Origin: Curtobacterium sp. HSID17257
GTDB lineage: Bacteria > Actinomycetota > Actinomycetes > Actinomycetales > Microbacteriaceae
DNA: 38,399 bases
Reading direction: 5' to 3'
Assembly: GCF_003989515.1 (NCBI RefSeq)
Contig: NZ_RBLU01000023.1
Span: 1 to 38,399 of the forward strand
The position numbers were made by a program, and so were the translations under genes. The notes beneath the pieces are model-generated. The model made no database searches. It was not told the DNA's origin and saw only the letters and a list, made by a program, of their open reading frames with translations. This document shows, one piece after another, positions 24,560-38,399 of this stretch (position 1 is the stretch's first letter; each line of letters starts with the position of its first letter).

Positions 24560-25332
24560 TGACCGACACCCTGGTCTCCGACAGCCCGCGCACCGACACC
24601 GTGCAGAGCGCTCCTCCCGGATCGTTCCCCGTCACGATCATCGTCCGCCGGTTCGACCCGGACGTCGATGACGAGCCGCGCTGGCAGGACTTCGACGTGA
24701 TGATGCTCCCGACCGACCGCATCCTCGACGCCCTGCACCAGATCAAGTGGGAGCAGGACGGCTCGCTGACGTTCCGCCGCTCCTGCGCGCACGGCGTCTG
24801 CGGCTCGGACGCGATGCGCATCAACGGCCGCAACCGGCTCGCCTGCAAGACCCTGATCAAGGACCTCGACGTGTCGAAGCCGATCTACGTCGAGGCGATC
24901 AAGGGTCTGCCGCTCGAGAAGGACCTGGTCGTGGACATGGAGCCGTTCTTCCAGTCCTACCGCGAGGTCCAGCCGTTCCTGCAGGCGTCGAGCAAGCCGG
25001 AGAAGGGCAAGGAGCGCGTGCAGTCCGTCGCCGACCGCGCCCGCTTCGACGACACCACCAAGTGCATCCTGTGCGCCGCGTGCACCTCGTCGTGCCCGGT
25101 GTTCTGGACGGACGGGCAGTACTTCGGCCCGGCGGCGATCGTCAACGCGCACCGCTTCATCTTCGACTCGCGCGACGACTCCGCGAACGTGCGCCTCGAC
25201 ATCCTCAACGACAAGGAGGGCGTGTGGCGCTGCCGCACCACCTTCAACTGCACCGACGCCTGCCCGCGCGGCATCCAGGTGACGAAGGCGATCTCCGAGG
25301 TCAAGCAGGCGATCATGCGCGGCGGCGTGTGA
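24559..25332 (+). CDS. sdhB: Succinate dehydrogenase iron-sulfur subunit
   Basis: A 257-residue electron-transfer subunit linking FAD to the membrane quinone site. The 2Fe-2S ligands are C76, C81, D84 and C96 (block CAHGVCGSD, with Asp as third ligand as in E. coli). The 4Fe-4S and 3Fe-4S clusters use CILCAACTSSCP near residue 172 and CRTTFNCTDACPRGI near 230. The first ~20 residues form a flexible leader. ATG 24559 overlaps the sdhA stop. No terminator is evident in the 70 bp before the next gene, so read-through into the TNT-domain gene is possible. Confidence 0.97.
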   Translation: MTDTLVSDSPRTDTVQSAPPGSFPVTIIVRRFDPDVDDEPRWQDFDVMMLPTDRILDALHQIKWEQDGSLTFRRSCAHGVCGSDAMRINGRNRLACKTLIKDLDVSKPIYVEAIKGLPLEKDLVVDMEPFFQSYREVQPFLQASSKPEKGKERVQSVADRARFDDTTKCILCAACTSSCPVFWTDGQYFGPAAIVNAHRFIFDSRDDSANVRLDILNDKEGVWRCRTTFNCTDACPRGIQVTKAISEVKQAIMRGGV

Positions 25333-25389
25333 CGCATCGTCGCTCCGGTGGCACGGCGGTGTCTCGGCGAACGGCATGCATGCGGCCGG

Positions 25390-25395
25390 TAGGCT
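25390..25395 (+). promoter_or_regulatory. Candidate -10 TAGGCT for the TNT-domain gene (leaderless)
   Basis: TAGGCT ends 7 bases before ATG 25403, with only GC-rich sequence between and no Shine-Dalgarno. This is the same arrangement as before genes at 401, 5937 and 7806. Confidence 0.4.
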
Positions 25396-25402
25396 CGCGC
25401 GC

Positions 25403-26047
25403 ATGACGTTCGCGGAGACCCGCCCCATCCTCGACCAGCTCGGCTACACGATCCGGTACGTGCAGCTCCCCGGAGAGTCGCTCACCGAGCCCCCTGTCGA
25501 GGGCGCACTGCGTGTCGTCCCGACCGAGACGCACGACGACTTCGCGCTCGAGGTCGTCGACTACGGCACCGCGCGCCGACTCGCCACCGCCCGTGGCGAG
25601 CAGGACGCGGTCGAGATGCTGCGCCGCTTCCTGAACCGCGCCTTCCCCGCGCCGCGGGACATCCCCCGCCACGAGCTCGACGGGCTCCGCGACCGCGCGG
25701 CGTCGACGTACCCCCAGCTCGCCCAGCAGGTCCGCCAGGCCGGCCCGCAGGGGCTCACCATCCAGGTGCCGGCCGGCGTCCCCGTGGACCGCGTCGGCGG
25801 CCCCGACGGCTACCTGCTCCACCCGCTCGACACACCGCTCCCCCAGCGGTCGCTGCCGCCGCACGTCGCGGCGGCCCCCGAGGTGCACCGCTACGTCGTC
25901 GACCGGCCCTTCATGGTGACGGTCACGTTCGTGCAGCCCTGGTTCGACCAGCCGGGAGGCGCGCTCCGGTTCGCGACGGCCGACCCGTCGGTCACGGTGC
26001 GCGACCTCGTCGTGAACGGTTCGCTGGTCCGCCTCCGGGTGGTCTGA
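25403..26047 (+). CDS. TNT-domain protein (NAD-glycohydrolase-fold) with an unknown N-terminal domain
   Basis: A 214-residue protein without signal peptide or membrane segments. Residues ~115-214 match the TNT (tuberculosis necrotizing toxin, DUF4237) pattern: VDRVGGPDGYLLHPLDTP, QRSLPPH, EVHRYVV, and PWFDQPGGALRF, with the glutamine of QPGG at residue 183 in the position of a known catalytic glutamine. The final VRDLVVNGSLVRL also fits the family's end. Residues 1-110 form a separate domain I do not recognise. TNT domains are normally toxins exported by T7SS, with immunity partners. Here there is no exporter-type N-terminus and no obvious immunity gene next to it, so it may be an intracellular enzyme. 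I chose ATG 25403 because a -10-like element precedes it. Confidence 0.75.
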   Translation: MTFAETRPILDQLGYTIRYVQLPGESLTEPPVEGALRVVPTETHDDFALEVVDYGTARRLATARGEQDAVEMLRRFLNRAFPAPRDIPRHELDGLRDRAASTYPQLAQQVRQAGPQGLTIQVPAGVPVDRVGGPDGYLLHPLDTPLPQRSLPPHVAAAPEVHRYVVDRPFMVTVTFVQPWFDQPGGALRFATADPSVTVRDLVVNGSLVRLRVV

Positions 26048-26068
26048 GCCTCCGCCCGGTCCTCCGGG

Positions 26069-26112
26069 ACGACGAAGCGGCCCACCCCTGACGGGGCGGG
26101 CCGCTTCGTCGT
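26069..26112. terminator. Bidirectional terminator hairpin
   Basis: Bases 26069-26083 pair perfectly with 26098-26112 (15 bp). After one A/C mismatch, CCCC 26085-26088 pairs with GGGG 26093-26096 around TGAC. It lies between the convergent TNT-domain gene (+) and DUF805 gene (-). Confidence 0.85.
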
Positions 26113-26123
26113 GACGGGGCCGA

Positions 26124-26801
26124 TCAGGCCTGCGGGCGGGGTGCGTCCGGCTGGTCGTACTGCGCGCCGTTGGGGTTCGACTCCAGGCACCCGAAGACGA
26201 TCCCGGCGACCCCTGCCGCGAAGGAGATCAGCCAGAAGGGACCGGCGAGCCCGGCGTCGTGTACACGACGCCACCCGAGTGCGAGCGACGGGATGAACGT
26301 CGCGAGTCCCCAGAGGCCGAGCAGGCCGACGAACAGGAGCGCGCCCCCGGGGAAGCCGCCGGTCGTGGTCGTCGTGCCGTACTCGTCCGTCGTGGTCGCT
26401 CCGGCGGCCCAGACGAGGATCGCGGCGATGTAGCCGCCGAACAGGATCGTCACGACGATCGCGTTCGCCAGGTACCACCACCAGAACTCGCTGCGGCTCG
26501 CGCGGCCGTCGAAGCGGGCGTACTTCTTCCAGAACCGGACGAAGGCGTCGAGGAACCCGGCGCCGTACCAGGGCGCCCAGAGCGGCGGGGCGCCACTGGC
26601 GTCCGTCGGGATCGGCGCCTGCTGCCGGTACTGCGGGTACGGCTGGCCGTACGGCTGCTGCGGCTGCTGGCCGTACGGCTGCTGCCCGTACGGCTGCTGC
26701 TGGCCGTACGGCTGCTGAGGCTGCTGTCCGTACGGCTGCTGCTGGCCGTACGGCTGCCGCGGCTGCTGCGGCTGCTGCCCGTGCTGCTGGTCGTCGCTCA
26801 T
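26124..26801 (-). CDS. DUF805 membrane protein with a QQPYG-repeat N-terminus
   Basis: A 225-residue membrane protein. Residues 1-60 are a Gln/Pro/Tyr/Gly-rich low-complexity region made of repeated QQPYGQ units. The DUF805 domain follows: FLDAFVRFWKKYARFDGRAS, RSEFWWWYLANAIVV, hydrophobic segments, and ALGWRRVHDAGLAGPFW. Four hydrophobic helices are plausible. It ends with SNPNGAQYDQP. Its ATG 26801 overlaps the stop of the upstream paralogue (ATGA). Function is unknown; DUF805 proteins are small inner membrane proteins. The repeat region is probably exposed to the cytoplasm and may mediate self-association (inference). Confidence 0.85.
   Translation of the reverse strand: MSDDQQHGQQPQQPRQPYGQQQPYGQQPQQPYGQQQPYGQQPYGQQPQQPYGQPYPQYRQQAPIPTDASGAPPLWAPWYGAGFLDAFVRFWKKYARFDGRASRSEFWWWYLANAIVVTILFGGYIAAILVWAAGATTTDEYGTTTTTGGFPGGALLFVGLLGLWGLATFIPSLALGWRRVHDAGLAGPFWLISFAAGVAGIVFGCLESNPNGAQYDQPDAPRPQA
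26639..26756. repeat. Short tandem repeat CCGTACGGCTG in the DUF805 gene
   Basis: CCGTACGGCTG occurs six times with spacings of about 15 to 24 bp and CTG-rich filler. It encodes the QQPYGQ repeats on the minus strand. Copy number could vary by slippage. Confidence 0.75.
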
Positions 26802-27331
26802 CGAGTGCCCTCCGGTCGGTCGTAGCGTGCGCCCTGCGGGTTCGACGGCAGGAGCCCGAAGACGATGCCGGCGATGCCGACGAACACCGCGATGATCCAC
26901 AGCGCCCCGGGCAGGTTCGCGTCGTGCAGCCGGCGCCACCCGAGCGCCAGCGACGGGACGATCGTCGCGAGCCACCAGATCGCCGGCAGCACCAGCAGCG
27001 CCCAGAACAGCGGCGACGGCGGGTTCGTCACCCGGTACTCGACGCCGCTCAGGTCGACGGTCGTGTACTCGATCGTGGCGAAGCGGTACACGAAGGGGAT
27101 GGTGGCGAGCACCAGTCCCACGACGGTGACGACGAGGTAGGCCCACCAGAACTCACTGCGGCTCGCCCGCCCGGAGAAGGTCGCGTACTTCGCGAAGAAG
27201 CGGCCGAGCGCCTGCCCGAAGGAGGCGCCGTAGCGCGGGGCCCACCGCGGCGGTTCTCCGCCCGCTGTCGGGTACGGCTGCTGCGGCGGCGCGCTCGGGT
27301 ACGGCTGGTCGGACGTCATGTGGTCGCTCAC
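26798..27331 (-). CDS. DUF805 membrane protein (paralogue of the downstream gene)
   Basis: A 177-residue membrane protein. A short PYPSAPPQQPYP-type leader precedes the DUF805 domain with GQALGRFFAKYATFSGRAS, RSEFWWAYLVV, three to four hydrophobic segments and SLALGWRRLHDANLPGALW. The ending SNPQGARYDRP matches that of the next gene, SNPNGAQYDQP, so the pair is a tandem duplication. GTG 27331 has AGGGGG about 6 bp upstream; an ATG at 27319 is the alternative start. The 60-bp gap before it (27332-27391) has only a weak 7-bp stem with a 20-base loop. Function is unknown. Confidence 0.85.
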   Translation of the reverse strand: MSDHMTSDQPYPSAPPQQPYPTAGGEPPRWAPRYGASFGQALGRFFAKYATFSGRASRSEFWWAYLVVTVVGLVLATIPFVYRFATIEYTTVDLSGVEYRVTNPPSPLFWALLVLPAIWWLATIVPSLALGWRRLHDANLPGALWIIAVFVGIAGIVFGLLPSNPQGARYDRPEGTR

Positions 27332-27391
27332 GTGTTCCCCCTCGTGGTGTCGGTCGTGCGACGTACCCCACGAGTCAACCAGAAGTGGCCG

Positions 27392-28324
27392 TCACGGCAC
27401 GAGCGCGAGCTTCCCACCGGGGTGCTGCGACTCGAGCAGCTCCGCCGCGGCCTTCGCCTCGGCCAGGGGGAACGTCCGGGCCACCGGCACCTCGAGCTCG
27501 CCCGCCGCGGCGAGGTCGACCAGCCGCTGCCGGACGGAGTCGCGGAACGCCTGACTCTCGGGCTGGCTGCCACCGACGGCGGGGAACCCGTCCTGCTGCG
27601 CGCGGCCGAAGGCCGCGATGGTCACGATGCGCGACCGGTCGGCCACGAGCGCCAGCGAGACGTCGACCGCCTCGTCCGTCCCGACGCAGTCCAGTGCCAC
27701 GTCGATGCCGGAGGGTGCGAGGTCACGGATGCGCGCCTCCAGGCCGTCGCCGTACGCGACCCACTCGCCACCGAAGCGGCGGACGGTGTCGGCGTTCCGC
27801 TCGGAGGCGGTGCCGATCACGCGGGTGCCGAGCGGGCGGAGCAGCTGCAGGACCGCCACGCCTACCGCGCCGGACGCACCGTGCACCAGCACGGTGTCGC
27901 GTCCCTCGGCGCGGGTGACGCGGATCATGTCGGCCGCGGTCGTCCCGGCCAGCAGCAGGTTCGCCGCCTGGGGGTGGTCGAGGGACGCGGGCTTCGCGAA
28001 GACGTCGGCGGCGGGGACGGTGATGCGTTCTGCCCAGCCGCCCGCCACGCGGAAGGCGAGGACCTCGTCGCCGACCGCTCCCCCACCGGAGGCGATCTCG
28101 GTGTCGGGGCCGATCGCGCTGATGACGCCGGAAACCTCGTAGCCGACCGGGATCGGCAGGTCGGACGGGTCCCCCTGCCGGGTGTGCTTCGTGTCGGCGG
28201 GGTTCATGCCGGCCGCGCGGACGTCGATGGTGACCTCGCCGGTGCCGGGGGCGGCCACCTCGGTGTCGACGTACTCGAGGACCTCGCTGCCGCCGAACTC
28301 GGGGGCGACCCAGTGCTTCGTCAT
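27392..28324 (-). CDS. NADP-dependent quinone-oxidoreductase-like protein (MDR superfamily)
   Basis: A 310-residue cytosolic medium-chain reductase of the zinc-free quinone oxidoreductase branch. The catalytic-domain start APGTGEVTIDVRAAGMNPAD is followed by PVGYEVSGVISAIGPDTE. The nucleotide-binding fold shows VLVHGASGAVGVAVLQLL near residue 150 and then GTRVIGTASERN. AGELEVPVARTFPLAEAKAA and HPGGKLAL are typical of the family end. It lacks the zinc-binding Cys cluster of alcohol dehydrogenases. It lies 19 bp downstream of the immunity array on the same strand but has no obvious functional link to it. The substrate is not predictable. Confidence 0.9.
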   Translation of the reverse strand: MTKHWVAPEFGGSEVLEYVDTEVAAPGTGEVTIDVRAAGMNPADTKHTRQGDPSDLPIPVGYEVSGVISAIGPDTEIASGGGAVGDEVLAFRVAGGWAERITVPAADVFAKPASLDHPQAANLLLAGTTAADMIRVTRAEGRDTVLVHGASGAVGVAVLQLLRPLGTRVIGTASERNADTVRRFGGEWVAYGDGLEARIRDLAPSGIDVALDCVGTDEAVDVSLALVADRSRIVTIAAFGRAQQDGFPAVGGSQPESQAFRDSVRQRLVDLAAAGELEVPVARTFPLAEAKAAAELLESQHPGGKLALVP

Positions 28325-28343
28325 GGGGTGGACGGTACGCCGC

Positions 28344-29816
28344 TCAGTCGAGGTCGCTCCAGGAGTGCACGCCGGCGAACCGGACGGCCTCGCTGCGGGT
28401 CATCGGGTGGCCGAACTCGGCGCCCGGGCGGACGCTCCAGCCAGCTCCGTTCCACACCTCCGTCACCGTGTCGTTCTCCACGGGGAAGCGGCGGGCGACG
28501 CGAGGGCCTGCGGGCACCACGGTCAGGCCGTACTCGACCGCGGCCAGGGCGACCTCGACGTCGACGGAGGCGACCGTCTCGTCGGACAGTCTCGGAGCCG
28601 GCCCTTCGAAGAGCGGCCAGAGGGCCTCGTACCGGTCGTCGACGCGCAGTCCGGACGACCAGCTGTCCATGTGCGTCCCGTGCACGGCCTCCCGGACCGG
28701 CTCCCAGCACGCCTCGGGCAGGTCGCCTTGCCGGACCAGTCGACGGAACTCGGAGCAGACGACCGCGCTCTGGGCGTCGTCCCGGAAGCCTCCGCGGCCG
28801 CGAGAGAAGGCGCGGATCAACGCCGTCGTGCCCAGCGTCACGCCGACCGGACCTCCGACGGCGAACGCTCCGTCGCGCCCGCGAAGCGTGTCGGCGAGGA
28901 CGTTCACCGGGACGTCACGCAACCAGGTGAGTCGGACGAGGGAGGAGAAGTCGGAAGATCGACCTGGTGCGCGAGCGACAGAACGGACGGAGTGAGAGGC
29001 TCCGTCCACATCGGACTGCCACTCGAGCTCGGTGGCGAGACCTCGAGAGCGATCCAGTACGCCTCGTGGCAGGGGGACGGCGGACAGCTGGTGCGGCCCG
29101 GGGATCCTGATGCCGGACGAGCGCTCGAGGACGACGACGAGCCGCTCCGCATCCTCGACGTGCGACGTGGAAGCGATCAGGTGCTCGGAGGCGCGTTGAC
29201 GGCAGATGACATCAAACGAGTCGCCCCGCTGGACGATCCGGCTGGCGTTCTCGTGGTCGCCGTACTCGAACAGTGTTCCGTGAGCCCTGCGGATGCCGTC
29301 GAGGGTGGCCGGCGCATCGGGCCGGTTGCCGACGAGCCGCCCGAGCGCGACGGCGTGCGGCACATCGTCCTCCGCGGATCCGACATCCCCGGCAGCCAGG
29401 TCGAGCGCTTGCACAGGGTCTGGCTGCAGTGCACACCAGGGGATGGCGTCGAGTTCGACTCGTGCCACCCTCGCGAAGGCGAGGGAGCGCCGAGCGCCAT
29501 CGACTCGAGGGAGACCTGCCTGGGAGCGGACCTCGAACGCGAGCTGCAGGGCCACCGAGCGCGCCGCGTCCTCCGGATCGTCGAAGGTAATGCCGGTGAA
29601 GCTGACCTCACCTCGAGAGAACCGTCGTTCGCTGACTCCCTGCGGCGAGACGTCGTACCGGAAGCGGATCTCGAGGTCCCCGTACTCGAAGCGGTCGGAT
29701 CGTGCTGTCGTGTCGGAGTACCCAGCGCGTTCAGCAAGGCGTCGAAGGACGACGAGGCTGCGCTGATCGAAACCGGGGCGGGGGCAGATGCCGTTCTCGG
29801 ACACCGGGGTGTTCAC
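28344..29816 (-). CDS. Two-domain Imm61-like protein, last gene of the immunity array
   Basis: A 490-residue soluble protein of unknown function. Residues ~15-110 contain FEYGDLEIRFRYDVSP and GITFDDPEDAARSVALQLAF. Residues ~160-330 repeat the theme: VGNRPDAPATLDGIRRAHG, LFEYGDHENASRIV, HVEDAERLVVVLE and LVRLTWLRDVPVNVLADTL. This second unit is clearly related to the whole protein encoded at 30854-31435. A further ~150-residue C-terminal part with W and acidic residues has no counterpart there. The pattern resembles Imm61-type immunity proteins, but the family name is tentative. ATG 29816 overlaps the stop of the Imm52-like gene (ATGA). An immunity role is inferred from its place behind a toxin gene. 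Confidence 0.65.
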   Translation of the reverse strand: MNTPVSENGICPRPGFDQRSLVVLRRLAERAGYSDTTARSDRFEYGDLEIRFRYDVSPQGVSERRFSRGEVSFTGITFDDPEDAARSVALQLAFEVRSQAGLPRVDGARRSLAFARVARVELDAIPWCALQPDPVQALDLAAGDVGSAEDDVPHAVALGRLVGNRPDAPATLDGIRRAHGTLFEYGDHENASRIVQRGDSFDVICRQRASEHLIASTSHVEDAERLVVVLERSSGIRIPGPHQLSAVPLPRGVLDRSRGLATELEWQSDVDGASHSVRSVARAPGRSSDFSSLVRLTWLRDVPVNVLADTLRGRDGAFAVGGPVGVTLGTTALIRAFSRGRGGFRDDAQSAVVCSEFRRLVRQGDLPEACWEPVREAVHGTHMDSWSSGLRVDDRYEALWPLFEGPAPRLSDETVASVDVEVALAAVEYGLTVVPAGPRVARRFPVENDTVTEVWNGAGWSVRPGAEFGHPMTRSEAVRFAGVHSWSDLD

Positions 29817-30544
29817 GCTGTTCGACCCTCGCTCGGCAGATCGGGGACGCTGACTCCTGCGAGGACCGCCCGAACCTCGGCCACTGCGGTCGGGGCATCG
29901 AGCGCGTCATCCGCCGCGAGCAACGTGCCACGATGCAGCGACGACCTGGTCACTCCCGAGTTCGTCGCGGGCACGACTCCGAGCCGCTCCGAGACCCAGG
30001 TCCGCTGCCCGAGCACGGCACCGAACCGGCCCGCGTCCTCCACCGCCCGTGCAGCAGCTCGATCGAAGGCTCCAGCGGAGTCCGGGTCCCACGCACGCAC
30101 GATCGTCGCCAGCACCTCCTCGACGAGTTCGACGTCCGGCGCTCTCCGCTCGCCCCCCGCGACGGGCCCGACGACGCTCACCGACACGGCGTTCACCGGT
30201 CGGCGACGCCGCGGGACGGATGCTCCGACCTTCAGGCGCAGCGAGACGAAGCCGCGCTCCGCTCGGCGGTTCATGATCACGTTGTAACCGTGGTCCGGCC
30301 ACGCGGTTCCGTCGTCCCCGCGTTCGACACCCTGCTCGAGCAGTTCCTGCACGACGGCCGGGTCGTACTCGCGGATCGTGCCGACGCCGTCCACCTCCCA
30401 GGGCTCCCCAGCGCCGAGGACAGCGTCGACTCCCCGCAGCTGGGCCAGCAGCGAGTTGCTCAGATCGTCCGAGGATGAGGGTCGGCCGTCCCACTCTGCG
30501 CGGAGCAGTACGCGCTCTCCACAGACCCACTTCGGATACCGCAT
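29813..30544 (-). CDS. Imm52-like protein, second copy
   Basis: A 243-residue soluble protein, paralogous to that encoded at 31564-32289. Matching segments include the N-terminus (MRYPKWV versus MPFPTWL, then AEWDGR versus AAWDAR), RAWDPDSA, the long conserved GQRTWVSERLGVV, and LLAADDALDAP. ATG 30544 is chosen because it aligns with the start of the paralogue; the frame runs further upstream. In the intact copy the effector gene ends 8 bp upstream. Here the corresponding upstream DNA is a decayed toxin-tail sequence. Imm52 proteins are known partners of Tox-REase-5 toxins; assignment to that family is by eye. Its own target may be gone from this locus. Confidence 0.65.
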   Translation of the reverse strand: MRYPKWVCGERVLLRAEWDGRPSSSDDLSNSLLAQLRGVDAVLGAGEPWEVDGVGTIREYDPAVVQELLEQGVERGDDGTAWPDHGYNVIMNRRAERGFVSLRLKVGASVPRRRRPVNAVSVSVVGPVAGGERRAPDVELVEEVLATIVRAWDPDSAGAFDRAAARAVEDAGRFGAVLGQRTWVSERLGVVPATNSGVTRSSLHRGTLLAADDALDAPTAVAEVRAVLAGVSVPDLPSEGRTA

Positions 30545-30559
30545 CGACTCGACCCCACT

Positions 30560-30830
30560 CCGGTGCTCTCCAGTACACAACTCGGAGGATCACGACGTTG
30601 CACACTCGGACAGCAGCATCGCACAGGTGTTCGCGCAGCGGGGGTGGCGGCGACACGCGTCCGTTGGGTGTGCGGATCCCCACACCCCTGGACCGTCCCG
30701 TTCCCGGCCCGATGGAGATGGCTCAGCCCGAGGTGGACGCGATCCGATCCGGGCTCGCTCCGTACTGCCCGGAACTGGCTGAAGCTGACCGCCATCGCCG
30801 ATCCCCCGGGCACACGCCGAAGGCATCTCG
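30560..30830 (-). pseudogene. Frameshifted relic of a Tox-REase-5 toxin tail
   Basis: This 309-bp gene-free stretch (30545-30853) holds broken similarity to the end of the intact effector. Reading 30727 to 30647 on the minus strand gives 27 residues, AEPSPSGRE... to ...DACRR, that align with effector residues ~669-697 (AEDQLAALP... to ...DAVRR). Shared positions are AE, DG, W, P, DA and RR, with a two-codon deletion. Just upstream, TACGGAGC replaces TACTGGAGC (effector YWS), a 1-base loss that shifts the frame, and GCCTTC....GGGATCG recalls the DNA for KAFSRGIA. It is located immediately before the second Imm52-like gene, as the intact tail is before the first. The call rests on alignment by eye. 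Confidence 0.5.
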
Positions 30831-30853
30831 GGTTGCACGAACGCCGAACCGGT

Positions 30854-31435
30854 TCAGCTCGCCTCTCCCCGAACGGAGTCGAGCCACGCACTGCTCACCC
30901 GCCGTCCCGGATCGACGGAGTCGACCACCGCCAGGACTTCAGGCAGGGAACGACTCCGCACCCATGCAAGCTGACAGACGAGCGTTGAGCTCTCGTCGGA
31001 GAGCGCCCGGGCAACGTGATCTTCGCCCCCGGCGTCCCAGCGCAGCACCTTCCCGGGGTGGTCCTCGAGGACGACCACCCCATCGGGAACAGTCGGCAGA
31101 CCGCCGGACCACGGGGCGGGATCACGCCGTGCCCCTTCCCACAGCAGTACGAATCGCTCCGCATCGTCGAGCCGACTGAACTCGGCAAGCGCCCAGGAGC
31201 TGCCCTTGTCGCGGGTTTCGAAGGCAAATCCCGAACCGGTGACTGCAATACGAAAGGTCGTCTCCAGCGTGCCGTACTCGAAGAGGATGGAGTTCCCTCG
31301 TCTCACACCCGGAGCGGAGGACAAGTCGGGCGGTTCGTTGCCCACGAACCCGCCGAGGAGGTCGGCATCCTCTTGGGCAAGGTCGTCGTGATCAGTCAAG
31401 AGTGATCGCCGCTCTCTGCACCTTCGGCAAGACAC
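30854..31435 (-). CDS. Imm61-like protein, single-domain copy
   Basis: A 193-residue soluble protein homologous to the second domain of the 490-residue protein at 28344. Shared pattern: FVGNEPPDL, GVRRGNSILFEYGTLE, RLDDAERFVLLWE, LVCQLAWVRSRSLPEVLAVV. The ending differs. The start is uncertain: GTG 31435 gives MSCRRCRER, without a good ribosome binding site; TTG 31399 (LTDHDDLAQEDADLL) is an alternative that gives a more natural N-terminus. A 128-bp spacer lies between it and the Imm52-like gene upstream, whereas the second copy is joined by an ATGA overlap. Function is inferred as immunity from context; which toxin it would counter is not known. Confidence 0.6.
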   Translation of the reverse strand: MSCRRCRERRSLLTDHDDLAQEDADLLGGFVGNEPPDLSSAPGVRRGNSILFEYGTLETTFRIAVTGSGFAFETRDKGSSWALAEFSRLDDAERFVLLWEGARRDPAPWSGGLPTVPDGVVVLEDHPGKVLRWDAGGEDHVARALSDESSTLVCQLAWVRSRSLPEVLAVVDSVDPGRRVSSAWLDSVRGEAS

Positions 31436-31563
31436 CGGCCCGATGGTTGCCCATGAGCCTCGAGTCGGCCCCGAGCCCGGTGATCAGAGCCATCGCGCGC
31501 TCGTCACACGGTCGGGGATCACTCCGAACCGTACCGGCAAGGGTTCCGAACGAGTGTGTCCGA

Positions 31564-32289
31564 TCACGCAGCGCGGACGATCTCGGTGACCTCGTTGGCC
31601 TGGAGAGTCGCCCACACCTCACGCACAGCTGACTCGGAGTCCAGGGCGTCGTCCGCTGTCAGGTAGCTGCCTCCGTCCGCCCGCTCGACGTGCACTCCAG
31701 ACGTGGACGTCTCGACCACACCGAGCCGATCCGAGACCCAGGTGCGCTGCCCGATCACCGGTGCGAACTTGCCTCGTCCTTCGGCGGCGATCGCTCCAGC
31801 ATCGTCGTACACCGCTGCGGAGTCGGGGTTCCAAGCTCGAACGAGTCCACGGAGGACACCCTCGGCCAGATCAGCGTCGATCGACAGGCGGTTCGCTTCT
31901 CTCAGCGGCCCAGCGATGGTGACCTGGACCCCGTTCGCCGGCATGCGACGGACGATCTTCGCGGCCCCGACCCGGAAGCGGATCGAGATGAACCCCGCGC
32001 TCCCTTCTCGCGCGAGACCGAGCACGTAGCCGCGCGGTGGGAACTCGATTCCCTCGGCGTCCCGGAAGACGTGCGCGGACACGATGGGCGTGAGTGCCGA
32101 AGGGTCGGTGGACACGACGCGGTCGTCTTCCTCGACGAGCGCCCACTGGGCACCCGCTCCGAGCAGTTCGTCGTAGGCAGCGAGCTGGACAGCGATGCGC
32201 TCTGCCAGCGCTTCGGGCTCCTCTCCACGCGCATCCCACGCGGCTCGAGCCGTCACCTGCGTCGTCCGTAACCAAGTCGGGAAGGGCAT
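31564..32289 (-). CDS. Imm52-like immunity protein, adjacent to the effector
   Basis: A 241-residue soluble protein encoded 8 bp after the effector stop, the classical place for a cognate immunity gene. The first 45 residues, with TARAAWDARGEEPEALAERI, fit the W..R.E....LA.R pattern of Imm52; GLVRAWNPDSA, VIGQRTWVSDRLGVV and YLTADDALDSESA follow. There is no signal peptide, as needed to block a nuclease in the cytoplasm. Imm52 is the family usually paired with Tox-REase-5 toxins, and the effector's C-terminus resembles that toxin family, so the two assignments support each other. A second copy lies at 29813. Confidence 0.72.
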   Translation of the reverse strand: MPFPTWLRTTQVTARAAWDARGEEPEALAERIAVQLAAYDELLGAGAQWALVEEDDRVVSTDPSALTPIVSAHVFRDAEGIEFPPRGYVLGLAREGSAGFISIRFRVGAAKIVRRMPANGVQVTIAGPLREANRLSIDADLAEGVLRGLVRAWNPDSAAVYDDAGAIAAEGRGKFAPVIGQRTWVSDRLGVVETSTSGVHVERADGGSYLTADDALDSESAVREVWATLQANEVTEIVRAA

Positions 32290-32296
32290 GGACCGG

Positions 32297-34456
32297 CTAC
32301 TCCGTTCTCATCGGCGTGAAGATGACCGTCAGATCATCCCCGTCGATTCCGCCTCCGCGAAGCAGGCGACGGACTGCGTCCGCGGCGTACGGATCAGACA
32401 CGTGCCATTCTAGACGAGCACCGTCCGGAAGCGCAGCGAGCTGGTCTTCAGCCTGCTCGATCATCTTCGGGATGCGCTTGCTCCAGTAGGGACCGGCCGG
32501 GTCCGCGAACGCGATCCCTCGGCTGAAGGCCTTGGCATCGAGGAAGACCTCCTGCGGCGGGTGACCTCGCTCGGTCATGCCGTCGAAGTCCACCGTCGTG
32601 CCGTCTTCGGCGAACAGACGGTACTCCGGCAGTTTGCCGTCCACCGTCCGCTCGACGCCCGCGATCTGCGCCTGGTAGTCGGCCCAGGGACGGTCCGCTC
32701 GCCCGAAGTACTTCCATCCGGATTGGTGCGTCGCTTGGTCGTACGTCTCGCGCGGGACGTGAGGGGTCGGTTCACCGGGCCGCAGCGGATCGCCCGAGGC
32801 GTACTGGTCACCTCGGGTCGGATCGAAGGTGTCCGGCCGTGGAACCGGTCGGGTCTCGGGCGGAGGATTGTCACCGCCGCCGGCAGGCGGAGCGGGTCGG
32901 TCGCCTCCGTGAGAACCGTCGTGCTGCCCCTCGCTCCCGGCGCCACCGGTCGTCGGACCGTCTCCACCGCGGTGCCCCGGGTCGCCTTCCACACCGGCGC
33001 CGTGCCCGGAGCCACCGCTCGACCCCGCGTCGGAGCCACCCCCGTGCACCGTGGCGCTCTCCCCGTGCCCGCCACCGACCAACGCCGGCTCACGCTCGGG
33101 CGTCGGCACGTTCGACTCCGCGCCCTCCGAGTGCGCGTGGGCGTTGGTGTTCGCCTGCGCGTGCGCGTCGGCCGCTGCGTCCGCCGCCCCCTCGCTCCGC
33201 GCCGCCGGCCCGTCGACCGCACCGTCCGCATCGGCGTGCGTCCCGTGCCGCCACTCGTCGAGGTCGACCCTGAACTCGGCGATCCTCGTCCTGAAGCCGT
33301 CGGGCACGTGCTCGAAGCCGTCCGTCAGCACGCCCTTGAGGTCGCCGAGCTTCGGCAGGACCTTGGTCAGCCCCCTCGACGCCCAGGCTCCGGCGTCCAC
33401 GAGGTCCAGGACCTTCCCCGCCTTGCTGATCGCCGACGCGACCTCGCCGGCCCGTCCGACGGTACTGACCTTGCTCGCGACGCCGACGACCGGGATGACG
33501 AGCGACGCGATGTTCCAGGCGCTCTCACCGAGCGCCGTCCCGGGGTCGTCGGCCCACTTGTCCCATGCCACGGTGCCCTTGAGCAGCCCGCCCCACCCGG
33601 CCTTGGCGGCGTCTCCGTCGAACCACTCGTTCGATTCCTTGTCGTACCCGATCAAGGAGCCGAGACTCTTCCAGGTGTCGACGAAGTTGTCGCCGCTCCA
33701 CTTCCAGTCGCGGAAGCCGAGCAGTTCACCGAGGCCGCCGATGGTCCCGACGATCGCACCGTCCCAGACGACGCCCTTCACCAGGCGCGGCACGAACCAC
33801 GTCGTCTTCTCCGCGCAGGACTCGTTGCGCGACTCCGCAGTGCCCCACGGCAGCTTGGTCCCCATCGGGAGTTCGTCGTACCCGTACCCGAGCGCGTCGT
33901 CGCCGGACCCGGTGATGGCGTGCAGCGCCGGCAGGCCGCTCAGGGAACGGATCGCGTTCGCGCACTTCCGTTCGGCGGCCTGGTACTCGACGACGCGGTT
34001 CGCGACGCCGTTGATGATGTCGTTGTTCTCGCCGTTGAGCGTCTCGTCCTGGTCCCAGCTCTCGGTCTGCGTGACCGGGCCGTCCATCGTCTGGATGGTC
34101 TGCGGCTGGAACGCGGCGACGTCCCGCTGCAGCTGCTCGGCCCGCGTGACGTAGGCCTTGAGCGCAGCGACGATCGGGGTGGCTTCCTCGACGAAGGCGT
34201 CGAGTGCCTTCGCGGCGGAGTCGAGGTCGTCGCCGAACGTCGTGCCCTGCGGCCCGATCGGCGTCATGACGTCGAAGAGCTCTTGGTCGCTCGGCCCCTC
34301 GTAGGAGCCGGAGATCGCGCTCCACGCGGTGACGATGTCGGCGGTGCCGTCCCGGACCGCGGACGCGACCGACCGCAGCGAGGTCGCACCGGCGGTGATG
34401 CCCTCGAGCTGCACGTCGGTGTACGGGATCTCCCCGCTCTCGACGACGGCGTTCAC
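32297..34456 (-). CDS. Polymorphic T7SS effector with Tox-REase-5-like nuclease C-terminus
   Basis: A 719-residue protein. Residues 1-140 are predicted helical without a signal peptide (DVQLEGITAGATSLRSVASA, AKALDAFVEEATPIV), like LXG/WXG-type T7SS targeting regions. Residues ~210-380 are a conserved-looking middle domain with hydrophobic helices (WDGAIVGTIGGLGELLGF, NIASLVIPVVGVASKV). Residues ~410-570 are a long Gly/His/Ala/Pro-rich low-complexity linker. The C-terminal ~100 residues look like a PD-(D/E)xK nuclease of the Tox-REase-5 group: FDG with D625, VFLDAK with D640 and K642, then YWSKRIPKMIEQAEDQL and LEWHVSDP. GTG 34456 overlaps the upstream stop (GTGA). Imm52-like gene follows 8 bp downstream. 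Confidence 0.8.
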   Translation of the reverse strand: MNAVVESGEIPYTDVQLEGITAGATSLRSVASAVRDGTADIVTAWSAISGSYEGPSDQELFDVMTPIGPQGTTFGDDLDSAAKALDAFVEEATPIVAALKAYVTRAEQLQRDVAAFQPQTIQTMDGPVTQTESWDQDETLNGENNDIINGVANRVVEYQAAERKCANAIRSLSGLPALHAITGSGDDALGYGYDELPMGTKLPWGTAESRNESCAEKTTWFVPRLVKGVVWDGAIVGTIGGLGELLGFRDWKWSGDNFVDTWKSLGSLIGYDKESNEWFDGDAAKAGWGGLLKGTVAWDKWADDPGTALGESAWNIASLVIPVVGVASKVSTVGRAGEVASAISKAGKVLDLVDAGAWASRGLTKVLPKLGDLKGVLTDGFEHVPDGFRTRIAEFRVDLDEWRHGTHADADGAVDGPAARSEGAADAAADAHAQANTNAHAHSEGAESNVPTPEREPALVGGGHGESATVHGGGSDAGSSGGSGHGAGVEGDPGHRGGDGPTTGGAGSEGQHDGSHGGDRPAPPAGGGDNPPPETRPVPRPDTFDPTRGDQYASGDPLRPGEPTPHVPRETYDQATHQSGWKYFGRADRPWADYQAQIAGVERTVDGKLPEYRLFAEDGTTVDFDGMTERGHPPQEVFLDAKAFSRGIAFADPAGPYWSKRIPKMIEQAEDQLAALPDGARLEWHVSDPYAADAVRRLLRGGGIDGDDLTVIFTPMRTE

Positions 34457-34836
34457 CGGTCGAACATCCCGTCGAACGCGGCGAAGTTCCCGTCCTTCGA
34501 CGCGGCGATCGCATTCGCTTGAGCGGTCGAAGCCCCCATCTCGTCATCCCCCTCGACGATGGCGCGGGTCGCGCCCGCGGCGCCGTACAGCGACGCCTGG
34601 ATCCGGTCCTGGATCCCCGTCAGCATGTCCTGCCGGTGCTCGAAGAACCCGGCGAGCGCCTCACCGATGACCTGGGACTGCGCAGCGGTCGCCGCGTCCT
34701 CCACGACGGTGGCGATGCCCTGGACGGACCCGTCCTCGGATCCGCCCAGGGCGTCGTTCATCGTCGTGGTCCTGGACGCGACGTCCTGCAGCACGGCCTC
34801 GACCCCCGCGGGATCGACCCGCCAGCCGTCGACCAC
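34453..34836 (-). CDS. Small helical T7SS-associated protein (Lap/DUF6507-like)
   Basis: A 127-residue helical protein that starts GWRVDPAGVEAVLQDVASRT, a pattern seen in small actinobacterial T7SS-associated proteins (DUF6507-like, tentative), and contains GEALAGFFEHRQDMLTGIQD near residue 60. It has no WxG motif and no signal peptide. GTG 34836 lies just 1 bp after the stop of the ESAT-6-like gene, and its own stop overlaps the effector start. Small helical proteins encoded right before LXG effectors act as partners (Lap proteins) that dock the effector to the secretion machine; that role is inferred here. Confidence 0.65.
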   Translation of the reverse strand: MVDGWRVDPAGVEAVLQDVASRTTTMNDALGGSEDGSVQGIATVVEDAATAAQSQVIGEALAGFFEHRQDMLTGIQDRIQASLYGAAGATRAIVEGDDEMGASTAQANAIAASKDGNFAAFDGMFDR

Positions 34837-34837
34837 G

Positions 34838-35155
34838 TCAGCCGATGTTGCCGACGGCCGACTTCGCCTTGCTGATCGCTGCCTGTGCCGACTCGTCGTT
34901 CGACTGCAGCGAGGAGCGCAGCGTGGCGATGATCTGCTTGACCTCGCCCGCGACGGTGTTCCACCGCTGCTCCTTGGCGTGGTACTCGTCCGAGACGCCG
35001 TCGGCCTGGTAGTCGGCCATCGCTGCCTTGACGTCGGAGTCGCGCTGCGCGATGAGCGCCTCGAGCTGCGCCGCAACGGCGTTGAAGTTGTCCTGCGCGT
35101 TCTGCGATGCCGCGACGTCGTAGTCGCGACGGTCTGCCTGGTTGCCACCGCTCAT
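34838..35155 (-). CDS. ESAT-6-like small helical protein
   Basis: A 105-residue Ala- and Gln-rich helical-hairpin protein, of the type annotated as 'pore-forming ESAT-6 family' in actinomycetes. Helix 1 contains QNAQDNFNAVAAQLEALIAQ; a turn region holds YQADGVSDEYHAKEQRWNTV, where a classic WxG is replaced; helix 2 contains IIATLRSSLQSNDESAQAAI. There is no signal peptide. GGAG lies upstream of ATG 35155. It is encoded between a WXG100-type protein and the Lap-like protein in the effector operon. Probable secretion partner or co-substrate of the T7SS. Confidence 0.78.
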   Translation of the reverse strand: MSGGNQADRRDYDVAASQNAQDNFNAVAAQLEALIAQRDSDVKAAMADYQADGVSDEYHAKEQRWNTVAGEVKQIIATLRSSLQSNDESAQAAISKAKSAVGNIG

Positions 35156-35184
35156 GGTGTGTGCTCCCTCTCCCCGGAGTTCCG

Positions 35185-35520
35185 TCAGGCGCGGCCGCTG
35201 AAGCGGGCCGCGTCGAAGTTCGAGCTGCCCTCGAGCGAGCTCGTGGACTGCGCCATGTCCTGGTCGCCCTCCTGGAACGAGCGGTCCATGCCCGAGATGC
35301 CCTGGAGCACGCTGGCGAGCGCACCGTTCAGCTCGTTGGCGATGGTGTCCGTCTCGGACTTGAAGCGGTCGAACGCGGCACGTCCGGCACCGTTGAACCG
35401 TCCCTGGAGCGGCTCGGCCGAGTCGGCCAGCTTGCGGACCAGGGTCCCCAGGTCACCGGAAGCGCCGGACGTCTGCTTGGTCAGGTTGGTGAGGACCTGT
35501 GCCCCCATTGCGAACTTCAT
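35185..35520 (-). CDS. WXG100-family protein
   Basis: A 111-residue helical-hairpin protein of the WXG100/ESAT-6 superfamily. The first helix spans VLTNLTKQTSGASGDLGTLV; the turn FNGAGRAAFDRFK replaces the canonical WxG; the second helix includes ETDTIANELNGALASVLQGI. The C-terminal tail is disordered (SSLEGSSNFDAARFSGRA). It is the first gene of the minus-strand effector operon, divergent from the FHA gene. GAGGA lies upstream of ATG 35520. Most likely secreted with, or needed for secretion of, the effector. Confidence 0.8.
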   Translation of the reverse strand: MKFAMGAQVLTNLTKQTSGASGDLGTLVRKLADSAEPLQGRFNGAGRAAFDRFKSETDTIANELNGALASVLQGISGMDRSFQEGDQDMAQSTSSLEGSSNFDAARFSGRA

Positions 35521-35576
35521 CGCTCATCCTCTCTGTCCTTCCCCCCACCCCTGTACGGGTGACAGCGAACGAGTGC

Positions 35577-35606
35577 AGCCTAGACCACCGCGCGCGACCC
35601 GTCACG
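35577..35606 (-). promoter_or_regulatory. Candidate promoter of the effector/immunity operon
   Basis: On the minus strand TAGGCT lies at 35577-35582 with a GTGACG-like -35 at about 35600-35605, 17 bp apart. It is 57 bp before the WXG100-type gene. The 129-bp divergent gap also holds GGGAGGTGAGG before the FHA gene on the plus strand. Confidence 0.4.
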
Positions 35607-35649
35607 TCCCCCGTCTGACATGATCGGTGGTGCCGACGGGAGGTGAGGC

Positions 35650-36747
35650 ATGTCGTCGATCGTGGTCGAGACCGTGGTCCCCGTGATGACCTGTGGTCGC
35701 TGCGGGGCGCCGTCGACGCAGGGGCAGCGGTTCTGCACGGACTGCGGCACGCTGCTCGGCCGTACCGTCGCCGCGTCGGAGTACGACGCCCTGCGTGACG
35801 TCGCCGTCGCCCGTGCGGGCACCGTCGCGGTCGCACGTCTGGTCGACGTCGTCGTCTGCCTGCTCGGTGCCGCCGTGGGCGCCGCCCTCCTCTTCCTCGC
35901 CCACAGGGCGGTCCCGTCGTCCGACCCGGTCGGCACCACGATCGCCGGAGCGCTGCTCGGCGTCGTCGTGACGGCCGCGATCGTGGTGGTCCGCGCCTCC
36001 AGGACGGGTCGTGGTCCCGGCGGCGTCCTCCTCGCCACCCGCGTCGTCGACGTGGACGACGCGCTGCCCGCCGGGCCGTTCCGCCAGCTGACCCGCATCG
36101 GTCGCGGCGCACGCCGCGCGTCCGGCTCCGGCCCCTGGGCCGCCGCGACAGGCACGCTCACCGCCGCCCTTCGGCTCGGCCGCGAGCCGCTCTCCCCGGC
36201 ACTGCCGCCCCTCGGGACGGCCTTCGGTCCGGCAGCGTCCGCGGGCGTGCGTCCGGGTTCCGCACCGGCGCGCGACCAGCCTGGAGGCCCGGTGCCGGTC
36301 GACCTCGACGCCACCCGACGGTCGGTGGGCGCGTCCACCGCCCTCGCCGGCTTCGACGCGGTGCCCGCACCGGCTGCACCGGCCGCGCTGCCCCTCGACG
36401 AGTCGATCCCGGCGGACGCCGTCGTGCTCCGCTCCGAGCAGGGCGCCGTCCACTGGTTCCACGGGACCTGCGTCGTCGGCCGCAACCCCGAGGCGGAACC
36501 CGGCGTCGCGACCGTCGCGGTACCCGACCTGTCCCGGACGCTGTCGAAGACCCACGTCGCGCTCGTGCAGGCCGGCGGCGCGGTCGTGCTCCGCGACCTC
36601 GGTTCGACGAACGGCACCACCGTGGTGCGTCCCGACGGCTCGTTCGAGGTCCTCGTCGCCGGCGTGGACGTCGTGGTGGACGGCGGCTCGACCGTCCGCA
36701 TCGGCGACCACGCCTTCTCGGTCGTCCGCACCGGAGCGGCGTCGTGA
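35650..36747 (+). CDS. Zinc-ribbon, membrane and FHA-domain protein of a T7SS locus
   Basis: A 365-residue protein with three parts. A zinc ribbon uses C15, C18, C29 and C32 (CGRCG and CTDCG). Two hydrophobic helices follow near residues 58-115, RDD-like (LVDVVVCLLGAAVGAALLFL and GVVVTAAIVVV). After a Pro/Ala-rich linker comes a C-terminal FHA domain with CVVGRNP near residue 275, SRTLSKTH and LGSTNGT, the three phosphothreonine-binding loops. FHA domains bind phosphorylated threonines, so the gene may link the secretion system to Ser/Thr kinase signalling. GGGAGG lies 6 bp before ATG 35650. Its TGA overlaps the start of the next gene. Confidence 0.85.
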   Translation: MSSIVVETVVPVMTCGRCGAPSTQGQRFCTDCGTLLGRTVAASEYDALRDVAVARAGTVAVARLVDVVVCLLGAAVGAALLFLAHRAVPSSDPVGTTIAGALLGVVVTAAIVVVRASRTGRGPGGVLLATRVVDVDDALPAGPFRQLTRIGRGARRASGSGPWAAATGTLTAALRLGREPLSPALPPLGTAFGPAASAGVRPGSAPARDQPGGPVPVDLDATRRSVGASTALAGFDAVPAPAAPAALPLDESIPADAVVLRSEQGAVHWFHGTCVVGRNPEAEPGVATVAVPDLSRTLSKTHVALVQAGGAVVLRDLGSTNGTTVVRPDGSFEVLVAGVDVVVDGGSTVRIGDHAFSVVRTGAAS

Positions 36748-37862
36748 GCCCGTTCGGTGCGGGCCGGCGGACGGACCAGACGGATGACCGCCCGCCGGCA
36801 CGGCACCCGCTCCTCGACTCCGTCGGTGACGGCAGCGTGCGCATCGAGAGCCGGGCCGCCGTCGTGCGGCTCGGGCGGGCGCAGGCCGACCTGCTCGGAC
36901 GCGCCGCGGACGTCGGAGCGCGGCCGATCCTCGTGACCGACGGCCTGTCCGTCGTGACCGAGGCCTTCCGGCAGGCGCTGCTCGACGCGGGCGGCGCGTG
37001 GGTCGTCCGCGGTGACGACGGCCTGCGGAACGGGCTCGACGGCCGTCGACTCGACGCGTTCCCGGACGCCGTGCGGACCGGGCCACCGCGATCGGTCGAC
37101 GAGGTCGCGGTCAGCTTCCTCCGCCCGGTCGCGCCGACCGCCGACCAGCTCGTGGTCTCGGTGTCGGTGCGGCACCGTGCCGCCGCCGAGACCGTGCTCG
37201 GCACGACGTCCGAGCTGCTCGCGACCGAGCTCGCCGGCGCCGCGCCCACGGGCTGGGGCACGCACGAACCCGCCGGACGCCCGTGGGACCGTCGCACGCT
37301 GACCGAGGCCGCGCGGGACCGCATGCCGGACCCGACCCGGTTCGTCGTCGTGGGATCGGCGGCGGCTCCCGTCGCGTTCACCGTGACCGCCCAGCGCACC
37401 GACCAGGGGGTCGAGGAACTCACCACGGGTCTGCTCTCGGCGGGCGCGCCGGGGGACGCGGCCGCCACCGCCCGGGTCGAGGCCGTCCCGCAGGTGCTCG
37501 GACGGCTCGCCGCCACCCAGCTCCCGCTCTTCGCGCTCGTCCTGCGTCGCCCGGGTCGCGCCGACCTCGCGCAGGCGCCGCGCATGCCGTTCCCGCCGGT
37601 CCCGGTGGCCGTGCTCCTCGGGGCGCCCGCCGTCCGGCAGCTCGGGCTGGACCCCGCGGTGATGCGCGACCGCTTCGGCGCCGTCGTCGCGGGGAAGCCA
37701 CGGATCCCGGCGCTCGTGCTGCCGTTCGGTCGACACCGCGACCGCAGCCCGGTCGAGGAGCTCCGCGACCTGGTCGAGCACGTCGGGCAGGACCGGGTGG
37801 CGGAAGCGGCGGGCATGGACGAGTCGACGAGGGAACAGGTGCGACGTGCCACGGAACAGTGA
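36744..37862 (+). CDS. DUF6177-family protein of a T7SS locus
   Basis: A 372-residue soluble protein that I match by eye to DUF6177, a family seen next to T7SS genes in actinomycetes. Visible marks are the LLDSVGDGSVRIESRAAVVR stretch near residue 24, FVVVGSAAAPVAFTVTAQRT near residue 215, and FPPVPVAVLLGAPAVRQLG near residue 290. There is no signal peptide or membrane helix. The start is GTG 36744, overlapping the previous stop by 4 bp. Its 3' end overlaps the next gene by 17 bp. Role in secretion unknown. Confidence 0.72.
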   Translation: MSPFGAGRRTDQTDDRPPARHPLLDSVGDGSVRIESRAAVVRLGRAQADLLGRAADVGARPILVTDGLSVVTEAFRQALLDAGGAWVVRGDDGLRNGLDGRRLDAFPDAVRTGPPRSVDEVAVSFLRPVAPTADQLVVSVSVRHRAAAETVLGTTSELLATELAGAAPTGWGTHEPAGRPWDRRTLTEAARDRMPDPTRFVVVGSAAAPVAFTVTAQRTDQGVEELTTGLLSAGAPGDAAATARVEAVPQVLGRLAATQLPLFALVLRRPGRADLAQAPRMPFPPVPVAVLLGAPAVRQLGLDPAVMRDRFGAVVAGKPRIPALVLPFGRHRDRSPVEELRDLVEHVGQDRVAEAAGMDESTREQVRRATEQ

Positions 37863-38088
37863 CTCGGTCCTGCTCGAGAGCGTCGCGACGCACCGTCGAC
37901 GGCTCCGACAGGCGTTCGTCCTCGGGCGCCTGGCCGACCGGCGGCTCGTGAACGACAACGTCAAGCGCCTCATCGGCAGCGTCGTGCTCGCGGCGGTCGT
38001 CGGGGTGGGCTGCCTCGGGTACTCGTTCGTCACGAACGCCCTCGCCCAGCAGGCCGCGCAGCAACAGCAGCAACAGGAGACGAAGTGA
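37846..38088 (+). CDS. Small single-pass membrane protein in the T7SS operon
   Basis: An 80-residue protein with one transmembrane helix (LIGSVVLAAVVGVGCLGYSF, residues ~42-61), a basic N-terminal part with HRRRLRQAF and a Gln-rich tail at the C-terminus (QQQQQQETK region). The GTG start at 37846 lies inside the end of the DUF6177 gene. Its stop overlaps the next start (GTGA). It matches no named T7SS component that I can recognise. Position between DUF6177 and the ubiquitin-like protein makes it a probable structural or accessory membrane part. Confidence 0.65.
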   Translation: MPRNSDSVLLESVATHRRRLRQAFVLGRLADRRLVNDNVKRLIGSVVLAAVVGVGCLGYSFVTNALAQQAAQQQQQQETK

Positions 38089-38399
38089 CCGACTTCACCC
38101 GTGTGACGGTGGTCGGCGCTGGCCGTCGCGCCGACGTCGTCGTGGCGTCCGACGAGCCGTTCGCCGGGCTCCTCCCCCGGTTCGTCGACATCCTCGACGA
38201 GCCGATCGCCGACTCCGCGCACCCGATCGCCCTCGTGCGGGTCACCGGAGAAGCGGTCTCGCTGGCGGACGACGCAGCGACGCAGGAGATCGGCGACGGC
38301 GAGGTCCTGCACCTCGTCCGACGCGCGGACGCTCCGCCGCCGCCCGAGGTCTCCGACGTGACCGACGCCGTGGCCGACACCCTCGGCAGGCGGCACGAC
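38085..38399 (+). CDS. EccD/YukD-type ubiquitin-like protein, N-terminal part
   Basis: The gene runs off the right edge; 105 codons are visible from GTG 38085, which overlaps the previous stop. The visible part has a beta-grasp pattern: FTRVTVVGAGRRADVVVASD, a helix region FAGLLPRFVDILDE, then IALVRVTGEAVSL and IGDGEVLHLVRRAD, as in the N-terminal domain of EccD and in YukD/EsaB. The following Pro-rich stretch (DAPPPPEVSDVTD) would link to transmembrane helices in EccD. The full protein cannot be judged from this window. It marks the core secretion machinery continuing to the right. Confidence 0.75.
   Translation, partial: MTDFTRVTVVGAGRRADVVVASDEPFAGLLPRFVDILDEPIADSAHPIALVRVTGEAVSLADDAATQEIGDGEVLHLVRRADAPPPPEVSDVTDAVADTLGRRHD

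Follow-up and report, generated by a model that had tools for sequence, protein, structure and literature searches.

A probable deletion scar within a displaced TNT cassette at a Curtobacterium effector locus

Results

Organization of the locus

The window, by which we mean the whole 38,399-nucleotide stretch analysed here, lies on a 38-kb contig of a draft genome (253 contigs, 3.35 Mb) whose nearest named relatives point to Curtobacterium. A WXG100-type pair of small genes stands upstream of a long effector with a C-terminal toxin, an EsxEF–CpnT-type layout in which one of the small proteins scores below the profile cut-offs (Table 1). These gene neighbours suggest that the effector may be exported by type VII secretion. 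Imm52-1 begins 7 bp past the effector stop codon and is followed by X1, by Imm52-2 (40% identical to Imm52-1) and by X2, so that genes of two kinds alternate downstream of the effector. The reading frames of X1 and Imm52-2 are both intact, and between them, from the X1 stop (30854) to the Imm52-2 ATG (30541), lies a gap of 312 bp that is the subject of this work.

Table 1 Features of the effector locus in the window
Feature	Position	Strand	Basis
WXG100-like protein	35185..35520	-	PF06013 26.6 bits (cut-off 27.3); TIGR03930 30.2 bits (cut-off 44.85)
Pore-forming ESAT-6-family protein	34838..35155	-	NF035935 127 bits (cut-off 100)
Effector, 719 aa, intact Tox-REase-5 tail	32297..34456	-	PF15648 30.1 bits, E 7.2e-7, residues 591-688
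Imm52-1, presumed immunity gene for the live Tox-REase-5 tail	31564..32289	-	PF15579 21.1 bits, under cut-off 25
Putative fossil of a displaced TNT toxin tail (final 27 codons or so)	31395..31481	-	Likeness to G040 tail end
X1, intact immunity gene, IFT-like by predicted fold	30854..31399	-	Fold match to IFT; synteny with G040
Stretch between pseudo-TNT remnant and X1 downstream sequence, 50 bp	30777..30826		Without match
Pseudo-TNT gene remnant, middle only	30687..30776	+	92% to G040 gene
Deletion joint	30687..30688		In the window, 2 bp (CC) common to both aligned pieces
Leader of Imm52-2, kept	30542..30688	-	147 bp, 92% identical to G040
Imm52-2, orphan Imm52-like immunity gene	29813..30541	-	PF15579 17.0 bits, under cut-off 25
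X2, 490 aa, probable orphan TNT immunity	28344..29816	-	X1-like unit at about residues 154-301
'Core' paralogue of the lost gene, intact	25403..26047	+	PF14021 E 3.9e-22

The gap contains the middle of an opposite-strand gene

When the gap DNA is compared with 198 genomes, it has matches in 10, the window's own included; five of the 10 lie outside the genus and have only short matches (25–66 bp). In G040, a relative of the same genus, the gap corresponds to two separate pieces, one 92% identical over 147 bp and the other 92% identical over 90 bp, with 261 bp between them. In G040 and G023, the 90-bp piece falls in the middle of an intact plus-strand gene, which encodes a standalone TNT-domain protein of about 219 residues (PF14021 E 1.5e-19 in G040), and which we call pseudo-TNT for its dead-looking active site. 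Searched against 66 genomes of the genus, the G040 protein finds the window at 30676-30780 on the plus strand (E 6.8e-11, 74% identity). A family HMM built from intact copies scores the gap at 25.9 bits, again on the plus strand, and still gives 19.4 bits when G040 and G023 are left out of it; 0 of 300 shuffles do as well in either case. The remnant spans approximately residues 76-105 of 219, with both ends lost, and the PF14021 domain, which begins near residue 119, past the fragment, is absent. What is left is thus a remnant and not a gene.

The position of the remnant matches that in relatives that keep the gene, as the G040 gene lies between Imm52-1 and Imm52-2. In G040, the counterpart of the 147-bp piece belongs to the intergenic sequence that separates Imm52-2 from the pseudo-TNT gene, the two being divergent. 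The leader may hold the Imm52-2 promoter, although a promoter/terminator scan of the leader gave no promoter-like sites, no sigma-70-like site among them, and no terminator-like sites. One could regard the whole gap as a plain regulatory spacer whose match to a TNT-domain gene is due to chance, and the 92% conservation of the leader with G040 is what a spacer might show. The other piece, however, is 92% identical over 90 bp at the matching place and has a family HMM score that 0 of 300 shuffles equal, and it recurs whole or in part in G023 (89% identity) and in G018 and G029 (83% over 48 bp). We give the spacer reading practically no credence.

Once aligned, the two pieces share 2 bp, an overlap of the sort that a simple deletion can produce. 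A joint of this kind could also arise if a misassembly had fused two pieces of a genome that is, after all, in 253 contigs. But here the deletion is clean and collinear, its 2-bp overlap falls within a 38-kb contig, and fragments of the same family occur in G018, G029, G005 and G032 too, which makes an assembly artefact very unlikely. The exact gap is known from one strain, in a draft assembly. The 50 bp at 30777-30826 have no match in 21 related loci or in the rest of the window.

Could the fragment live on in a new gene? A plus-strand chimeric frame of 234 codons (30475-31179), antisense to part of X1 and to the start of Imm52-2, is open without a stop. Long open frames are common here, though, with 81 ORFs that reach 70 aa or more over 24000-38399 and a GC content of 65-79%, and the product would have neither the TNT domain nor the N-terminal domain. 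We consider a living chimera, like misassembly, to be very improbable.

The gap does not resemble a Tox-REase-5 tail more than shuffled sequence does

A sequence-only reading had taken the gap to be a decayed second Tox-REase-5 tail on the effector strand, once the toxin tail that went with Imm52-2. In principle, Imm52-2 could well have had such a partner, since in G038 the gene closest to Imm52-2 (57% identity) has a real Tox-REase-5 remnant in front of it, ending about 70 bp upstream. The letters on which the reading relied are also present. On the minus strand, 30727-30647 reads AEPSPSGRERDGPGVWGSAHPTDACRR, which had been set beside the effector from residue 669 on, AEDQLAALPDGARLEWHVSDPYAADAVRR, and TACGGAGC is found at 30764-30757. 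Of 1000 random 81-bp stretches of the window, 42 score at least as well as the block taken alone, which puts it in the top 42 before any correction for its selection.

In the tests made, the gap as a whole gives no signal clearly above that of shuffled sequence. Nucleotide alignment to the tail on the strand proposed is matched by 188, 43 and 89 of 500 dinucleotide shuffles under three scorings, and a lenient-gap alignment on that strand by 376 of 500. In six-frame protein comparisons, 222 of 300 shuffles do as well against the tail and 88 of 300 against the whole effector, where the best match is on the plus strand and falls in the linker. An HMM of 23 Tox-REase-5 tails reaches at best -1.7 bits in the gap, with 272 of 300 shuffles as good, and finds nothing in the leader (30542-30688) or in its G040 counterpart (best -1.2 and -0.9 bits). 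Because the same HMM scores the G038 remnant at 34.4 bits and another, in G040, at 68.0 bits, it would have picked up any gap remnant of useful size; because it gives only 5.9 bits for a 16-residue remnant in G023, a very short trace could go unseen.

The comparison with G040 accounts for the appearance of the block. It straddles the deletion joint: its AE and DG (30727-30692) fall in the piece that belongs to the plus-strand gene in relatives, and its W, P, DA and RR (30682-30647) fall in the Imm52-2 leader. As these halves sit 261 bp apart in G040, the register with effector residues ~669-697 is an accident of the deletion, and a fossil in one piece on the effector strand cannot be made of a block half of which belongs to a gene on the other strand. 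Nor need TACGGAGC be a one-base loss from TACTGGAGC, as had been supposed, since it is shared with the intact plus-strand gene of G040 and G023. Two outcomes had been named beforehand as evidence against the reading, a score no higher than that of shuffled sequence and a related strain with an unrelated gene at this place, and both were observed; in G040 a different gene, on the other strand, occupies the gap position, and the gap is no tail partner of Imm52-2. With shuffles as good and the block spanning the joint, we reject the Tox-REase-5 identity of the gap and regard it as extremely unlikely that a lost partner of Imm52-2 lies there.

The putative end of a TNT tail precedes X1

A trace of a displaced toxin does occur one gene earlier. 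Just before and into the start of X1, 31481-31395 matches the end of the G040 effector tail at 85% over 87 bp (E 8e-25 in a small search), and tblastn aligns residues 201-227 of 227 (E 7e-5). A profile of 11 TNT tails missed this segment (-1.6 bits, 183 of 299 shuffles as good), so to speak of a TNT-tail fossil is to draw on DNA likeness to G040 and one tblastn match, and we treat the assignment as putative. As in orphan CT–I modules, a truncated tail in the same orientation stands directly before an intact immunity gene, here X1 by likeness to G040, and the matching TNT tail is live on the effector in G040. There, X1 directly follows the effector, its start overlapping the end of the TNT-tailed frame. 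The window X1 start, a TTG placed by likeness to G040 and P0024, likewise overlaps the old tail end; the open frame reaches further up, to a GTG at 31435.

An AlphaFold2 model of X1 (12 sequences, pLDDT 79.3, pTM 0.81) has only two PDB matches below E 0.001, 4qlp_A (E 2.6e-4) and 4o6g (E 4.4e-4), both of which are the M. tuberculosis TNT immunity factor IFT/Rv3902c. The match has a probability of 1.00, with a TM-score of only 0.52 and an rmsd of 5.9-6.9, and by sequence X1 has no PDB or Pfam match. We file X1 as IFT-like only, because the fold matches but the sequence does not. Since a TNT-tail end precedes X1 and its model matches IFT, X1 is, on its predicted fold, an IFT-like orphan immunity gene behind the putative fossil.

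A search of the genome with X1 finds 28914-29354 inside X2 (E 1.8e-13). By eye, X2 has a second X1-like unit before the first, plus a C-terminal part. X2 has no Pfam match at E 1, and genes like its first part directly follow TNT tails in other genomes. It is a probable orphan TNT immunity gene and possibly encodes a double immunity protein.

Tails, remnants and immunity genes in relatives

G040 is a mirror image of the window, with a live TNT tail (PF14021 E 2e-15) and X1 followed by a broken Tox-REase-5 remnant and Imm52-1. Such remnants stand before Imm52-1 in G040 and G023 and before the closest Imm52-2 relative in G038, and another is found in G008. The Imm52-2 frame of G040 (L025, 3104-3870) is broken, the window copy being intact, and G038 (L041) has a row of four Imm52-like genes. 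The G008 locus (L067, G008:C3:58000-72000) is without an effector match, and its remnant lies, like several X1-like matches, no more than about 7 kb from a standalone TNT gene; the locus is perhaps an orphan immunity array without a weapon. The effector tails of G022 and G018 (L033, L043) have no Pfam match at E 0.01 and are nearly identical over their last 60 residues, which suggests a toxin tail that has yet to be named.

Tox-REase-5 tails 97% identical to that of the window ride on N-termini that are 61% (P0002) or 94% (P0003) identical to it, and the tail therefore moves between backbones. Among the matches listed, M. abscessus proteins have Tox-REase-5 tails 53-54% identical to the window's. 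The sequence-only reading had explained the alternating immunity array by a fossil toxin-tail/immunity cassette. The idea that displaced cassettes are recorded at the locus stands, but the record is one gene earlier than proposed, as a TNT tail before X1, and displaced cassettes together with moving tails explain the array without a Tox-REase-5 fossil in the gap.

We built a tree of effector N-termini from 17 of 18 loci (all but G026, which has a broken frame). In it, the window is nested in a clade with G037, G040 and G023, all three of which have TNT tails and intact pseudo-TNT genes, a position that supports loss in the window lineage. That the change was a loss here, as opposed to a gain elsewhere, is what this small tree, with room for only a few independent changes, would suggest.

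Pseudo-TNT genes often accompany TNT-tailed effectors

The locus was annotated in 18 genomes, comprising 17 relatives and the window, and 12 of these have an intact opposite-strand TNT gene within it. Of the effector tails of 16 relatives that were scanned (G026, with its broken frame, was left out), 14 match PF14021, and those of G018 and G022 do not. Full-length type-1 TNT tails occur in 11 loci, each of which has an intact pseudo-TNT gene, as does one of the seven others (G032); the hypergeometric probability is 3.8e-4, a value that ignores relatedness and concerns a class defined after looking. With PF14021-positive tails as the class, the counts are 12 of 14 against 0 of 4, the exceptions being G034 and G038. 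The window and G018, whose effectors both lack PF14021, have only fragments of the gene; in G029, G005 and G032, further fragments lie beside intact copies. For five of six pairs of intact copies, dN/dS is 0.10-0.28, and the sixth (G053, G056) differs by four non-synonymous and no synonymous changes.

The family is wider than the locus. All 66 genomes of the genus have a match at some genomic place, including 43 without an effector match, and a 'core' standalone copy lies further downstream in 17 of the 18 annotated loci, the contig of G023 ending before that place. In the window, the core gene is downstream of succinate dehydrogenase genes, and its product has Arg for the catalytic Gln.

In the fungal enzyme AfNADase, activity is reported to be abolished when R129, F137 or Q194 is mutated, with Q194A and Q194K among the changes tested (PMC7955114). 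In a phmmer alignment to the AfNADase chain, the G040 standalone protein keeps R129 and R148, with Leu in place of F137 and Arg in place of Q194. Of 197 matches to the family profile, the 120 listed were examined at these places: Arg is found at that of R129 in 120 of 120, Phe or Tyr at that of F137 in none, and Arg at that of Q194 in 119. The 14 PF14021 tails of the genus, by comparison, all retain Phe/Tyr and Gln. A model of the standalone protein has low confidence at residues 130-133, part of the active-site region.

Of 199 family genomes sampled, 24 have a PF14021 match, 20 of them outside the genus. Among these 20, five picked by eye from the table of matches have a TNT-bearing long ORF with a convergent standalone copy 2-8 kb away, and no such pair was seen in the same table for the other 15. 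The standalone copies, which may be orthologues of either the core gene or the locus gene, have Arg for Gln in five of five, and that of G222 retains a Tyr where F137 would be; four of the five long ORFs, all but that of G276, were read as having Gln. These residues suggest that the family of the lost gene is probably a pseudo-NADase, often convergent to TNT-tailed effectors. We found neither a pseudo-TNT partner nor a Curtobacterium type VII secretion toxin in the open-access literature.

Discussion

The gap between X1 and Imm52-2 is very probably a deletion scar inside a displaced TNT cassette, and the fragment in it is best interpreted as one more gene of this cassette. In the ancestor, a TNT (NAD glycohydrolase-type) tail would have closed the effector, with the IFT-like X1 next in line, and further down, on the opposite strand and divergent from Imm52-2, there would have been a standalone pseudo-TNT gene. 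In the window lineage, an incoming Tox-REase-5 tail with Imm52-1 could then have taken the effector 3' end, replacing the TNT tail, which would have been trimmed to its last codons (31481-31395) with X1 left whole. The pseudo-TNT gene could have been cut to the 90 bp at 30687-30776, losing one end to a deletion that stopped short of the Imm52-2 leader. Its erosion would fit a gene that is no longer needed where the locus makes no TNT-tailed effector, and the fragment would be inert today. X1 and Imm52-2 may have been retained as orphan genes that guard against relatives still armed with TNT or another Imm52-type tail. Several points count against this scheme: 50 bp of the gap are without a match, the TNT-tail profile misses the segment before X1, X1 matches IFT by fold and not by sequence, and the G040 pseudo-TNT gene comes after Imm52-1 and not directly after X1.

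The displaced-cassette part of this account is a new instance, in Curtobacterium, and not a new pattern, because CDI, Serratia Rhs, Listeria and mycobacterial cases have been described. First, in the account of orphan cdiA-CT/cdiI modules (PMC4927057), displaced 3' toxin ends and immunity genes lie downstream of a live effector with the immunity kept, as in the window; the possibility is raised there that these ends are a 'fossil' record of earlier exchange, and transposases and integrases are said to be common at such modules. The window differs from what is set out there in that its effector is actinobacterial and WXG100-linked, its tail is cut to the last codons and a convergent pseudo-TNT gene belongs to the cassette. 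Second, the Serratia Rhs1 NADase effectors (PMC10539506) are described as having exchangeable NADase-type and other tails on one backbone and orphan immunity without toxin, as here, but that is a T6SS/Rhs system, and the pseudo-NADase partner appears as a feature of the window-type cassette. Third, the variable regions of Listeria T7SSb loci (PMC10327511) also hold orphan immunity genes and truncated toxins, the latter proposed as a store of variety; the toxins in that description are LXG/Rhs and the hosts Bacillota, whereas the standalone TNT partner is a feature of the present locus.

Two mycobacterial systems are closer in their parts. As described in PMC7810871, the M. tuberculosis esxF-esxE-cpnT-ift operon shares with the window WXG100-type proteins, a long effector with a C-terminal toxin and an immunity protein that X1 resembles in predicted fold. 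The tails of the present locus, by contrast, vary between genomes, with Tox-REase-5 in the window, and no action on a host is implied. The prophage PEST cassettes of mycobacteria (PMC10654092) are similarly reported to combine WXG100, a polymorphic toxin and immunity with recombining tails, but the window locus is chromosomal and lies near the same downstream genes in relatives.

More broadly, TNT-tailed effectors of Curtobacterium and other Microbacteriaceae could be three-part cassettes, composed of an active TNT tail, an IFT-like immunity protein and a convergent dead TNT protein. The dead copy might assist a producing strain in coping with its own toxin; capping of the toxin, or of the immunity protein, ahead of export would be one example. 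It would be useless where resistance alone is needed, and would thus decay after a tail swap while the immunity gene stays, the gap being such a decayed copy. We put this model forward tentatively and think it more probably wrong than right in its full form; because the events are few, the producer-only role is one that we infer.

What the locus offers is a correction and a pattern. A tempting but chance resemblance to a Tox-REase-5 tail gives way to a scar that probably shows the direction of toxin exchange, with an incoming tail, a displaced tail and a lost helper gene at one locus. In many of the loci seen, a probably inactive TNT-domain protein stands opposite an active TNT toxin, and in the window lineage, whose TNT tail was replaced, it was eroded. 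This pattern is testable, and suggests a producer-only role in a toxin family named for its tuberculosis member.
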